A DNA stretch of 36,034 nucleotides from Nitrospinota bacterium (lineage in GTDB: Bacteria; JADFOP01), in NCBI GenBank assembly GCA_022562795.1, contig JADFOP010000017.1:1-36034 (forward strand). Reading direction: 5' to 3'. Position 1 is the first letter of the stretch; each line of letters begins with the position of its first letter. Under the pieces are notes generated by a model, which saw nothing but the letters and a program-made list of their open reading frames with translations, had not been told where the DNA came from and made no database searches. Both the position numbers and the translations under genes were made by a program. Positions 29,633-34,441 of this stretch are shown in pieces.

Positions 29633-29660
29633 TTGACACTATTTTATAAGCGGTTATAAT
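29633..29660 (+). promoter_or_regulatory. Near-perfect sigma-70 promoter before the EPS-type regulator
   Basis: TTGACA (29633-29638), a 16-bp spacer and TATAAT (29655-29660) match both consensus boxes fully. Transcription should begin near 29667. It is the best promoter in the window, so tight control by a repressor or leader RNA would make sense. Confidence 0.85.
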
Positions 29661-29661
29661 C

Positions 29662-29676
29662 GTTCAAAAATTGAAC
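29662..29676. promoter_or_regulatory. Operator-like palindrome at the transcription start
   Basis: GTTCAA-AAA-TTGAAC is a perfect 15-bp inverted repeat that begins one base after the -10 box and covers the predicted start site. A protein bound here would block the promoter. The HTH regulator encoded downstream is the obvious candidate, for autoregulation, but that is inference. Confidence 0.6.
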
Positions 29677-29844
29677 ACCCCCATCTACCTGGGGTTGTTC
29701 AGGGGGGCTCCTACCGCCGGGGATGTGAGGGTTGCCATCCTTGGTCGCGGGAGCAGCGCCACACCCGTTTCCTCTAGTTTTCGGTTACAAAGCCCTGTAA
29801 CCCACGGGGCGAAGCTGTGCCGCCTCTCATCAATAGAGCCCCCC
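29672..29844 (+). ncRNA. Candidate structured leader RNA (possible riboswitch)
   Basis: By hand the leader folds into two adjacent domains. First is a hairpin TGAACA...TGTTCA with CCCC/GGGG inside (29672-29701). Second, starting at the next base, is a domain closed by 29702-29710 with 29836-29844 (9 bp). Nested within it are 29722-29730 with 29823-29831 (8 of 9 pairs), 29753-29757 with 29814-29818, 29764-29768 with 29804-29808, and a hairpin GGTTACA/TGTAACC (29783-29802). No riboswitch consensus I know fits. It ends 59 bases before the regulator ATG. It may control that gene, or be an independent small RNA. No terminator is evident. Confidence 0.4.
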
Positions 29845-29903
29845 TCCCAAGAGCTCTCTCTCCAAGCATTAGGTTCCCACACGGGGCCCCAGTTTAAAGG
29901 ACT

Positions 29904-30497
29904 ATGGATAAGGAATACCTCCGCACACTCCAGCTCTTGACTGAGATTGAGAGCGACGTCAAGATTACTCAGCGTTCGCTTTCGAAGTCGCTGGGTATCG
30001 CCCTTGGTTTGACCAATGCCTACCTGAAGCGTCTCATCAATAAGGGATTCGTCAAAATTCACCGGGCGGGCGCCAATCACATCCGCTACATTCTGACCCC
30101 TTCGGGACTCATGGAAAAGTCCCGTCTTACCTACGAGTATCTCCAATACTCCTTGAGCTTCTATCGGAACGTGCGCCAGGAGATCCAAAGCCGCATCGAT
30201 GCTCTGCGGGGCCGGGGGGTCAAGCATCTCGCATTTTACGGAGCCGGCGAGGTGGCGGAGATTGCTTACGTCTGTATGCATGGGTCGGACCTGGAGATTG
30301 TTGGTGTTGTCGATGACCGCCGGGCTGGAGAGACCTTTTTTGGTCATCCCGTCCATGAGCGGTCGGCGCTGCACGAGCTCATCTTCGATGTTGTCTTCGT
30401 AGCCTCGCTGGAGCACGAGGCGCCGATGATCGAGAACCTCCTGAGCATGGGGATCCTGGAAGAGAACATTGTTCACCTTGGGGAGAAGAGCGAGTGA
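29904..30497 (+). CDS. Winged-HTH regulator fused to a Rossmann-type sugar-nucleotide-like domain
   Basis: The 197-residue protein has a winged helix-turn-helix at about residues 6-68 (TQRSLSKSLGIALGLTNAYL, then LINKGFVKIH), like MarR-type regulators found with exopolysaccharide genes. After a helical linker, residues 108-192 form a Rossmann-like unit: KHLAFYGAGEVAEIAYV, IVGVVDDRRAG, FFGHPVHE and FDVVFVAS. This resembles the N-terminal domain of FlaA1/CapD and PglD-like proteins. It could sense a nucleotide-sugar or cofactor and tune the downstream genes. AAAGGA precedes the ATG. The stop overlaps the GTG of the O-antigen ligase gene, so they are coupled. Target sites are not proven; the palindrome at 29662 is a candidate. 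Confidence 0.8.
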   Translation: MDKEYLRTLQLLTEIESDVKITQRSLSKSLGIALGLTNAYLKRLINKGFVKIHRAGANHIRYILTPSGLMEKSRLTYEYLQYSLSFYRNVRQEIQSRIDALRGRGVKHLAFYGAGEVAEIAYVCMHGSDLEIVGVVDDRRAGETFFGHPVHERSALHELIFDVVFVASLEHEAPMIENLLSMGILEENIVHLGEKSE

Positions 30498-31771
30498 AGA
30501 GCAGGCCGGTTTCTCTCGGCACCCCTCTCCCGTTTGCCATTCCCCATTGGGCGTCGCATGCGCTAGGGCATCTCGAAGCCGGCCAGTTCGTCGCCCTCGC
30601 TATCATGATTGTCGCCCTGCCGCTCAGCGAATCGGTCAAAAATGTCGCTTTCGCCCTGGCGGTGGGCTGTTGGATTCTACGCCTTCTGATTGGCGATGCG
30701 CCACGTGCCCGGCTTACGGTGGTAGGCGCCGCTCAGGCGCTCATAGTGGCCGTCGCCGTTGCAAGCGCCTTTGTGGCCCTCAACCGCCTGCAGGGGTTCC
30801 GAGGCGCGTGGGATATGGCTCGGGCCTGGTTAACCTTTCTTCTGGTCCTGAACACCGTGACCTCGTGGGAGAGGCTCAAGAGGTGCTGGGCCCTCTTTGG
30901 TGGGGCCGCCGCTGTGGGGTCCATTGTGGGGCTGTGGGGGTTTCTCGCCCGGCTCCCGCAGGCCATCGAGGCTCGAACTCATGCCGACGCCGTCGCTGTG
31001 AAAGTCCTCTCCTTGGGCCATCCCAACCACACGGCGACATATCTCCTTATGATGATCGCTTTGGCCTTGTCCTACCTCATTTTTTCAGGGGACCTCAAAG
31101 AGCGACGCTACTGGTGGTTGTTCGCGCTAGGAGCGGCGGTAATGATTCCCTCGATGTTCTTCACGTTTTCGCGCTCGGCGGGCCTCACCTTCCTCGTTAT
31201 TCTCCTCGTCCTTGGGTTAGCCAGGGGTAGGGGTCGGCTTGCGATGGGGGTGGTGGCGGCCCTGCTCGTAGGTTCCGTCGGGGTCACCTACCTTCCGGTC
31301 GTCAAGCGACATTTTCTCAGCGCTTCTCACCCTTTCTACACGGGGGCCATTACCGTCCGGCTTAAGACGTGGCGGGGGGCGTTGCTCTTCGCCGACGAGC
31401 GCCCCCTTTTGGGGGCTGGGCCGCGCAACTTTAACTATATTGATAGGCAGCGCTACCCGGTAAATAGGAATATGAACCACGCCCACAGTCTCTACTTCAA
31501 CGTCTTGGCGGAAATGGGGTGGCTCGGCGTAGGCGCTCTTGCCCTCTGGTTAGGCTCTATCGTGGTTGTGGGGTGGCGGTCCCGCCGATTCTTCACTACG
31601 CCCTGGGGACAGGTCGTCTGGATGGGAACCCTGGGGTGCTTTATCACTATCACGCTCTCCGGCGTTATGACTACGACTTTTCACACCGAAGGCGCTATGG
31701 CCTTTTCCGCGATTATCGGCCTATTGCTGGCCGCTCCCCACCTACCGGCAGAGGAGCCTGGGCATCCGTAG
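30494..31771 (+). CDS. O-antigen ligase/polymerase family membrane protein
   Basis: The 425-residue protein has 10-12 hydrophobic segments across its length and the Wzy_C/WaaL signature. A large periplasmic loop lies around residues 265-340, containing RLKTWRGALLFADERPLLGAG and NHAHSLYFNVLAEMGWLG, the pattern typical of O-antigen ligases. Such proteins attach O-antigen to lipid A-core or join exopolysaccharide units. The start is GTG at 30494, overlapping the regulator stop. Ligase and Wzy polymerase are hard to tell apart by sequence, so I keep the family name. Confidence 0.88.
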   Translation: MKSRPVSLGTPLPFAIPHWASHALGHLEAGQFVALAIMIVALPLSESVKNVAFALAVGCWILRLLIGDAPRARLTVVGAAQALIVAVAVASAFVALNRLQGFRGAWDMARAWLTFLLVLNTVTSWERLKRCWALFGGAAAVGSIVGLWGFLARLPQAIEARTHADAVAVKVLSLGHPNHTATYLLMMIALALSYLIFSGDLKERRYWWLFALGAAVMIPSMFFTFSRSAGLTFLVILLVLGLARGRGRLAMGVVAALLVGSVGVTYLPVVKRHFLSASHPFYTGAITVRLKTWRGALLFADERPLLGAGPRNFNYIDRQRYPVNRNMNHAHSLYFNVLAEMGWLGVGALALWLGSIVVVGWRSRRFFTTPWGQVVWMGTLGCFITITLSGVMTTTFHTEGAMAFSAIIGLLLAAPHLPAEEPGHP

Positions 31772-31897
31772 CCTTGGGTCATCGTCGCTTGAGCATAGTT
31801 TGTCTGAGCCACCTTGCTGAGTGGACGTCCAGTTAATTCAACGCATAATTCTACAGGGTTTAACTTCTTCGCTATGAAACGGGCCTTTGGTTAGGGC

Positions 31898-33037
31898 ATG
31901 AACGTCCTCATCGTCACTGGAATTTTTCCACCCGATATCGGTGGCCCAGCGACCTATGTGCCTCAGGTATCAGCGGCCCTTTCCGAGCGGGGCCACGATA
32001 TTACCGTAGTGACGCTGAGCGATAGTGTGGACCCCCATCACGATAACGAAGATCACCCTTTTCGGGTGGTGCGCATCCCACGGCGGATGTTTAGGCCGTG
32101 GCGTTGGCTCCGCACCGTCGTAGAGATCATCCGATTGGGGCGAGATACCAGTCTACTATTCGTGAACGGGATGTGGATGGAGGCGGTTTTGGCCAATATT
32201 TTCCTACGGAAGCCCTTGGTTCACAAGGTCGTGGGGGACCACGCCTGGGAGCGAGCAATCAACCTAGGCTGGGCAAGCGACAACTTTGAGGACTTCCAGA
32301 AAAAGCACTATGGCGTGAAGGTGGAGGCCCTAAAAGCGCTGCGGTCATGGTGGGCACGAAAAGCCGACATGGTCGTTGTTCCCAGCCGCTACCTCGCCCG
32401 ATGGATCGTCAGATGGGGCGTAGCCGAGGAGAGGCTGGTCGTCATTTACAATGGGGTAGAACCGCTCAACGGCGTCCAGCCTGCCGAAGTACCCTTGTCG
32501 ACTCCGATAAACCTTGTAACGGTCGGACGGCTTGTCCCTTGGAAACGTGTGGATATGGTGATCGAAGCCATTGCGCGACTAGAAAATTCTGGCTTGATCG
32601 TTGTAGGGGATGGTCCCGTGCTTAAGTTTCTCCAGGGGTTGGCGCGGAGGTTGGGAGTTTCCGACCGGGTCTATTTTGCTGGGCGGCGGAGCAAAACGGA
32701 GACGCTAGCCTTGATGGCGGCATGTGACATTTTCGTTTTGAACTCCACCTACGAGGGCTTTCCCCATGTGGTCTTGGAGGCGATGAGCCTTGGCTTGCCT
32801 GTCATTGCCACAGCCGTGGGCGGAATACCTGAGATAGTGCAGGATGGGGACAATGGGCGATTAATTGCGCCAACGGATGAAGAGGCGCTTTCTGGGGCCC
32901 TTTTGAAACTCGTCTTTTCTCCATGGGAACGACAGCGTCTGGCTGACGGGGCAAAGCGCACGGTTCATAAATTTAGCCGTTCTAACATGGTTGTGGAAAC
33001 TGAACGCGTCCTTAAATCAGTTTCTAGGAGACAATAG
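31898..33037 (+). CDS. Glycosyltransferase family 4
   Basis: The 379-residue protein is a GT-B fold retaining transferase. The N-terminal domain begins MNVLIVTGIFPPDIGGPATY, whose GGPA loop lines the acceptor site. The C-terminal domain has VGRLVPWKRVDMVIEA near residues 209-224, VVGDGPVLKFLQGLA, and the donor-binding YEGFPHVVLEAMSLGLPVIA with two Glu seven apart. It probably adds a sugar to a lipid-linked glycan in the cytoplasm. A 126-base gap separates it from the ligase gene; no clear ribosome site is visible. Donor sugar cannot be assigned. Confidence 0.93.
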   Translation: MNVLIVTGIFPPDIGGPATYVPQVSAALSERGHDITVVTLSDSVDPHHDNEDHPFRVVRIPRRMFRPWRWLRTVVEIIRLGRDTSLLFVNGMWMEAVLANIFLRKPLVHKVVGDHAWERAINLGWASDNFEDFQKKHYGVKVEALKALRSWWARKADMVVVPSRYLARWIVRWGVAEERLVVIYNGVEPLNGVQPAEVPLSTPINLVTVGRLVPWKRVDMVIEAIARLENSGLIVVGDGPVLKFLQGLARRLGVSDRVYFAGRRSKTETLALMAACDIFVLNSTYEGFPHVVLEAMSLGLPVIATAVGGIPEIVQDGDNGRLIAPTDEEALSGALLKLVFSPWERQRLADGAKRTVHKFSRSNMVVETERVLKSVSRRQ

Positions 33038-33043
33038 TCCCCC

Positions 33044-34441
33044 ATGAAGAATTCCGCTAAAGGGATGACCGCTCAAGCGCTGTCTTGGCAGGGTCTATGG
33101 GAGGCCTTCCGTGCGAAATTCGTCGGGCGGAAGTTTGTCCAGGACGTGGGAGTGCTGACGGCAGCCAACGCAGTGGGGGTTGTCTTAAGTTTCATCCAGG
33201 CTATCCTGGTAGCCCGCTGGCTGGGCCCGAAGCTCTACGGCGTTGCGGCCCTGGTTATGGCCTACCCCTCCGTTTTATTCGGCTTTGTTGACACACGTTC
33301 AGGCGCAGCGTCTGTTAAGTATCTTGGAGAGTTCGAGGCGAAACGGGACTCGGCGCGGGCCCTGGCAGTATGCAAACTGGGCTACACGGTGGACATGGCC
33401 GTAGCGATATTGGCCTTCATGTTGGTTGCAGCCACGGCGTGGTGGGCAGAGAAACGGATTGTCCAGATGCCTGGCATGACGTCCCTAATGATTCTCTACG
33501 CGGCGGCATTTCTCCCCAGCTCCCTCGCTAGGACTTCTTCGGCGGTTATGAGGACCTTCGGCCGTTTTCCAGCCCTGGCGAAGATAGACGGCATTTGCTC
33601 GGTCGTTCGGACAACCCTGGTGGTAGGGCTGGTTTGGATGGGATACGGCGTTGCTGGGGTGGTTTGGGGGAGCGCTTTAGGCCTGGCTTTAAGAGGACTG
33701 ATGCTCAGCCTCATCTCGTACCCTGTGGCGAAACAGGCCTGGGGCTCGTCTTGGCTCTGGGGCCGGTGGCATACGCTCCGAGGGGTGCGCAGGGAGATAG
33801 CGGGGTTTTTCTTTTACAACAACCTGAATGCGGTAATGGGTGTCTTCGTAAGACGGCTTGACCTCATCATTTTGGGTTACTTCCGAGGCCCTACAGAGGC
33901 GGGATACTATAGTTTGGCCAAATCTGTTGGGGCCGTGCTAAACAACCTTCGAGGTCCGTTACGATCGGTTTCTTATCCACGTCTGGCTAGATTGTGGGGA
34001 GGGGGCCAGTATGATGAACTGAGGGGGACAGTAAAGCGGTATGCATTGTTGGGTGTGGGGATATCTTTCGGGGCATTGGCGTTGGTAGCCGTTCCGCTGC
34101 TTCCAACAGCCATCGGTATTGTGGTCGGTGAGAAGTACCTACCAGCTGCTTTTGCCAGCCAGATTCTCTTTCTTGCAGGAGCAATCTATCTTGGAATGTT
34201 TTGGGTCAGGCCCCTTTACCTGGCCGCCGGAAAGGTCCGATCTTGGTTTGGACTCGGTTTAATAAGCGGCGGCTTTGCAATTATGGCGTATCCTGTAGGA
34301 GCTGTGCTTTGGGGAGCTAGCGGCGTGGCCTTAGGTCGAATGGCGGCGGGCATAATTCGTCTCGGTTTAGCCACTATTCAGATCTTACGAGGACGAGTGT
34401 ACCATGAAAGTACAACCAGCGCTGAAACGGTTCATTCTTAA
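33044..34441 (+). CDS. Polysaccharide flippase (Wzx-like, MATE/MVF-type)
   Basis: The 465-residue membrane protein has about 12 hydrophobic segments and the oligosaccharide flippase pattern: DVGVLTAANAVGVVLSFIQA followed by ILVARWLGPKLYG near residues 31-66, then PSSLARTSSAVMRTFGRF, and FFFYNNLNAVMGVFVRRLDL with IILGYFRGPTEAGYYSLA near residues 250-290. It would turn lipid-linked glycan units across the inner membrane. It starts seven bases after the glycosyltransferase stop. Its end overlaps the sulfotransferase gene by 38 bases. Confidence 0.93.
   Translation: MKNSAKGMTAQALSWQGLWEAFRAKFVGRKFVQDVGVLTAANAVGVVLSFIQAILVARWLGPKLYGVAALVMAYPSVLFGFVDTRSGAASVKYLGEFEAKRDSARALAVCKLGYTVDMAVAILAFMLVAATAWWAEKRIVQMPGMTSLMILYAAAFLPSSLARTSSAVMRTFGRFPALAKIDGICSVVRTTLVVGLVWMGYGVAGVVWGSALGLALRGLMLSLISYPVAKQAWGSSWLWGRWHTLRGVRREIAGFFFYNNLNAVMGVFVRRLDLIILGYFRGPTEAGYYSLAKSVGAVLNNLRGPLRSVSYPRLARLWGGGQYDELRGTVKRYALLGVGISFGALALVAVPLLPTAIGIVVGEKYLPAAFASQILFLAGAIYLGMFWVRPLYLAAGKVRSWFGLGLISGGFAIMAYPVGAVLWGASGVALGRMAAGIIRLGLATIQILRGRVYHESTTSAETVHS

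Follow-up and report, generated by a model that had tools for sequence, protein, structure and literature searches.

Region 29633-29903 of the window, the whole stretch of 36,034 nucleotides analysed here, is located upstream of a gene encoding a 197-aa regulator that is followed by polysaccharide genes, and it raises the question of which signals control this operon and at which stage of transcription they act. The window is contig C17 of its own genome (G000, 2.15 Mb), and three genomes of this sparsely sampled phylum were compared: G000, G001 from the same genus, and G002 from another family of the same class. The initial annotation had proposed stacked control layers in front of an EPS-type regulator; this part stands, but its suggestion of an unknown riboswitch built on a multi-stem domain is not borne out. 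We consider it likely, from the sequence comparisons, that the unit exerts a two-step control of the polysaccharide operon, which combines a repressible promoter with an ops-like site for pausing and UpxY loading. The features are collected in Table 1.

Table 1. Features of the regulator leader and the genes downstream (window coordinates).
Feature	Position	Strand	Remarks
Sigma-70 consensus promoter TTGACA-16-TATAAT	29633..29660	+	12/12 consensus match; spacing same in G001
Putative operator GTTCAAAAATTGAAC (GTTCA-N5-TGAAC) of MarR_EPS-type regulator, over predicted start site	29662..29676	.	seen upstream of homologues
5'-end RNA hairpin; left arm holds right half of operator	29673..29700	+	all 10 pairs kept in G001
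Multi-stem domain of the initial annotation, closing stem 29701-29710/29836-29845	29701..29845	+	not conserved
Hairpin GGTTACA-AAGCCC-TGTAACC, immediately 5' of core	29783..29802	+	stems identical in G001
Extended conserved element TGTAACCCACGGGGCGAAGC	29796..29815	+	pattern TGTRASYNANRGGGCGRAGC
Ops-like core of 12 nt, GGCGAAGCTGTG; candidate site of pausing and UpxY loading	29808..29819	+	ops likeness
MarR_EPS-like regulator, 197 aa: winged HTH, long helix, Rossmann-like domain	29904..30497	+	TIGR04176, AlphaFold2
Polysaccharide genes (ligase-like, GT4 glycosyltransferase, MOP flippase)	30494..34441	+	putative targets of leader control

The promoter, previously described as near-consensus, is in fact perfect and is the sole match in the scanned 1-kb region, where shuffled sequences gave 0.3. 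Its G001 counterpart is TTGACA-16-TATTAT, followed by the palindrome GTTCAATAATTGAAC. The perfect 15-bp palindrome reported on the transcription start site was also confirmed, with a similar one in G001; it begins 1 nt past the -10 box and thus spans the expected start site, predicted at about 29667. The pattern GTTCA-N5-TGAAC was found within 330 nt upstream of the gene in 18 of 27 usable regulator-homologue loci from several phyla, a count which takes in the window gene and its G001 orthologue, while Markov shuffles gave 0.01 and the downstream control 0. In loci of other phyla it typically lies 24-90 nt ahead of the coding match, and some loci (L005, L006 and L016) show two copies. At 13 of the 23 operator sites, those of the window and G001 included, 20-24 nt separate the end of the -35 (a TTGACA-like box) from the operator, so that the protein, once bound, would sit over the -10/start region. 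The palindrome is therefore very probably, as far as comparison of homologous loci can tell, an operator of the MarR_EPS-like family, and gives this little-studied regulator family a candidate binding site. Autorepression is the simplest reading, in which the regulator would bind upstream of its own gene and act negatively.

Just 5' of the MarR_EPS-type gene of L035 (G152), the operator position is occupied by the variant palindrome TGTCCAATAAATGGACA, which suggests a co-varied operator. The exact GTTCA-N5-TGAAC pattern is found at one further place only in the own genome (C13); this copy and one in G001 (C99) were rejected as operators because both are located 3' of orthologous small genes. 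In these two sister genomes the palindromes (L010:1501-1515 and L011:1501-1515) lie 60-70 nt past the genes, the G000 copy is followed by a T run and resembles a terminator, and both are probably terminator hairpins.

The regulator reaches 70.3 bits against the MarR_EPS model TIGR04176, under the curated cut-off of 88, and the match corresponds to the winged HTH domain (89 residues). The AlphaFold2 model (pLDDT 87) consists of three parts, namely winged helix, long helix and Rossmann-like domain. In the PDB it matched MarR proteins and 2g6t and also, though weakly and with poor superposition, Rex, an NADH-binding repressor. It shares with MarR_EPS proteins the winged HTH, the EPS setting and an operator common to members below and above the cut-off (among the latter L014, L016 and L017), but differs from them by its sub-threshold score and the additional C-terminal Rossmann-like domain. 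According to the model, this domain may possibly sense a ligand, nucleotide or sugar-nucleotide.

Ligand sensing had also been proposed at the RNA level, with a hairpin adjoining the operator and a multi-stem domain. Leader comparison was made with one close orthologous leader, that of G001, which shares the promoter and operator and is of similar length. The adjoining hairpin is borne out at 29673-29700 and shows in G001 two two-sided and two one-sided changes with 0 broken pairs. The closing stem of the multi-stem domain (AGGGGGGCTC/GAGCCCCCCT) is complementary in 10 of 10 pairs in the window, yet 7 of 9 scorable pairs are broken in G001; an inner hairpin at 29716-29745 keeps 8 of 10 pairs there. 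The multi-stem domain as such is probably not a functional unit, and most homologues of other phyla have short leaders with too little space for it. A riboswitch of a new kind, sensing a sugar nucleotide or a second messenger, would agree with the length of the leader, the stability of its predicted stems and a folding energy slightly better than that of shuffled sequences (z -1.83; 12 of 200 shuffles equally good), but the broken closing stem and the short leaders of most homologous genes make it highly improbable. The Rfam covariance-model search of the leader, at gathering or relaxed thresholds, gave no relevant family, which also speaks against it and agrees with the initial annotation, where no known riboswitch could be matched. 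Conservation in the leader falls instead on an ops-like element tied to genes of UpxY-type NusG paralogues, which points to antitermination rather than to RNA ligand sensing.

This conserved segment, TGTAACCCACGGGGCGAAGCTGTG at 29796-29819, had been overlooked in the initial annotation. Its extended pattern shows 19 matches in 16 of 386 genomes, and the reversed-pattern control gave 0 in all of them. UpxY-type genes were sought in the same 386 genomes and found in 78, which include 15 of the 16 genomes with the extended pattern (hypergeometric P=1.6e-10, an optimistic value because the pattern was derived from UpxY-flank loci, several of which are among its matches). Matches away from any UpxY gene, which were no input to the design of the pattern, occur on C19 of the own genome and in G093, G360, G365, G164 and G303, and mostly adjoin polysaccharide genes. 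In the own genome, this second extended element (C19:14242-14261; L160:5243-5262) belongs to a large second polysaccharide locus, where it lies between wzc-like and Wzy-like genes, and contig C85 of G002 (L169) has a near copy, TGTAATTTAGAGGGCGAAGC, in the same slot.

Scanning of the flanks of 66 UpxY-model loci for the core GGCGRAGC gave 19 sense and 0 antisense matches, against 1.54 (sd 1.24) in shuffles; four of the 19 (that of G139 and three of G086) helped to suggest the pattern and 15 are new, which makes the test partly non-independent. The scanned flanks of the other 47 loci lack the core, and some of these loci may be housekeeping NusG. In G139, TGTAACCGAGAGGGCGGAGCTGTC lies between an UpxY-type gene and a MarR_EPS gene, in the order operator, UpxY gene, element, MarR_EPS gene, and MarR_EPS and UpxY genes also adjoin each other in G172, G262 and G336. 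Furthermore, a similar core is located 3' of the regulator genes at L005 and L034, and 5' of three NusG paralogues in G086. Used alone and with one mismatch allowed, the core gave about equal counts in the controls of these G+C-rich genomes, and it was rejected as a genome-wide marker; specificity is confined to the extended form. A minus-strand core match at 1949 of the window lies inside an ORF and was set aside.

T occupies position 11, which the search had left free, in 29 of 34 core instances. Together with G1, G2 and often G12, this T11 fits the consensus pause, of which ops is itself an example (PMC5995543), as expected if the core were a mere pause site for ribosome coupling or for housekeeping NusG, with no dedicated UpxY partner. 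This reading is very unlikely, since UpxY genes adjoin the core besides co-occurring with the element, and since the centre of the core is conserved here but variable in the consensus pause (PMC5995543). We regard it as quite likely, on the genomic associations described, that the element is an UpxY-linked elongation signal.

The core allows a possible mini-hairpin with the pairs G2:C8 and C3:G7, a sheared G4.A6 and a single loop base, and d(GCGAAGC) is an unusually stable DNA mini-hairpin. The pairs are invariant, so covariation is uninformative on the pairing. A stem around the core (CACGG/CUGUG) pairs, by eye, in some instances only and was dropped. The E. coli ops, GGCGGTAGCGTG, has TG at positions 11-12 and pauses RNA polymerase at U11 (PMC5995543); in the paused ops complex, the non-template DNA forms the pairs G2:C9, C3:G8 and G4:A7, and the loop bases G5 and T6 serve to recruit RfaH (PMC11001881). 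The window core GGCGRAGCNNTG keeps the 12-nt frame, the GGCG start and the AGC past the loop, and GGCGAAGCTGTG has TG at 11-12, a likeness at the level of sequence. In addition, as for ops, the element is found in leaders and gaps of long polysaccharide operons, and a NusG paralogue is encoded in the genome. In contrast to ops, the loop of GGCGRAGC is one base shorter (G-R-A instead of G-G-T-A), the window core has no counterpart of T6, a flipped-out base that RfaH reads, and the element bears the conserved upstream TGTRACYSASRG and accompanies UpxY-type proteins of other phyla. The element thus resembles ops without carrying the sequence that defines it, and its assignment as an ops site is not warranted. 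A classic tetraloop ops core, GGCGGTAGC, was observed on the sense strand just 3' of NusG-type genes at L116 (G189) and L119 (G023).

The upstream arms of 20 element instances sum to 117 pairs, compared with 103.9 (sd 2.7) in shuffles, none of 1000 of which was as high. This excess would agree with a reading in which the element acts as nascent RNA, the hairpin at 29783-29802 and TGTAACYSASRGGGCGRAGC being read by a NusG paralogue or by RNA polymerase, in the manner of antitermination RNAs, and no DNA hairpin being involved; the TGTAAC part would trail the proposed pause by about 17-23 nt, at a point where the RNA is leaving or already out of the exit channel. Nevertheless, the upstream hairpin is absent from several of the instances, and T11 is near-invariant, as in ops, a site read on non-template DNA (PMC5995543, PMC11001881), which leaves the nascent-RNA reading unlikely. 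That the element is read as a non-template DNA hairpin has, in our view, about an even chance.

The own genome yielded two NusG-family proteins. One of them is a 349-aa fusion of a shikimate kinase and an UpxY-type NGN-KOW protein (L064:8323-9372, minus strand; G000:C20), encoded directly 3' of miaA, whose UpxY domain, taken as residues 180-349, reaches 120.7 bits against NF033644, over the cut-off of 100. G002 carries the same fusion (L067:8699-9724; G002:C26), also directly 3' of miaA; such a fusion of an enzyme and an elongation factor is unusual, and it is present in two families of the class. UpxY antiterminators have been studied in Bacteroides capsule loci. The protein of the own genome resembles them in its NGN-KOW domains and above-threshold score, and differs from them by the fusion to shikimate kinase and the location past miaA, outside a polysaccharide operon. 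In G001, an assembly 85% complete, zero NusG-family genes were found.

According to the two-step reading, the operator covers the strong sigma-70 promoter from the -10 edge across the start, and the product of the first gene, MarR_EPS-like, would bind it and repress its own operon at initiation. During elongation, RNA polymerase would reach the core, preceded by TGTAACCCACGG and the hairpin, about 140 nt into the transcript, pause near T11 and load an UpxY-type NusG paralogue, which would let the long operon be read to its end. The loaded factor would probably be the shikimate kinase-UpxY fusion, acting in trans from another contig; that no UpxY gene adjoins the window operon counts against this loading model. 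Since the element is present in the window and in the C19 locus, the fusion would serve at least two operons of its own genome in trans, like RfaH. A similar arrangement, a NusG paralogue acting on long operons, is that of LoaP in Bacillus, which differs in its reported action at intrinsic terminators (PMC7819879).

Among NusG paralogues, RfaH has the best-understood DNA recruitment signal, and the authors of the ops-complex structures pose the question of whether hairpins like ops but with different loop bases might bring in further elongation factors (PMC11001881). The element described here has a shortened loop, is widespread and goes with UpxY proteins, and it is a concrete candidate for such hairpins. 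In the literature searched, which leaves most subscription journals outside, we found neither a DNA element of this kind assigned to UpxY nor a description of this ops-like variant. The more general proposal, that UpxY paralogues of many phyla have a recruitment signal of their own, the triloop ops relative TGTRACYSASRGGGCGRAGCNNTG, which would fold in non-template DNA into a GNA mini-hairpin and be used in cis beside upxY genes, in trans in further polysaccharide operons and even by a phage-borne UpxY, with the factor fused to shikimate kinase in the present lineage, seems to us as probable as its opposite. The element itself would offer UpxY factors a predictable target, and their operons could be found by sequence.

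A blind scan of viral contigs gave seven matches to the element, six of which are chance-like, without an UpxY ORF alongside, and were discarded. The remaining one (L184:7226-7245, minus strand) is located at the 5' end of an UpxY-family ORF with 100.2 bits against the cut-off of 100, and a lysozyme-like ORF is found downstream on this putative phage contig, which possibly carries a phage-borne antiterminator.
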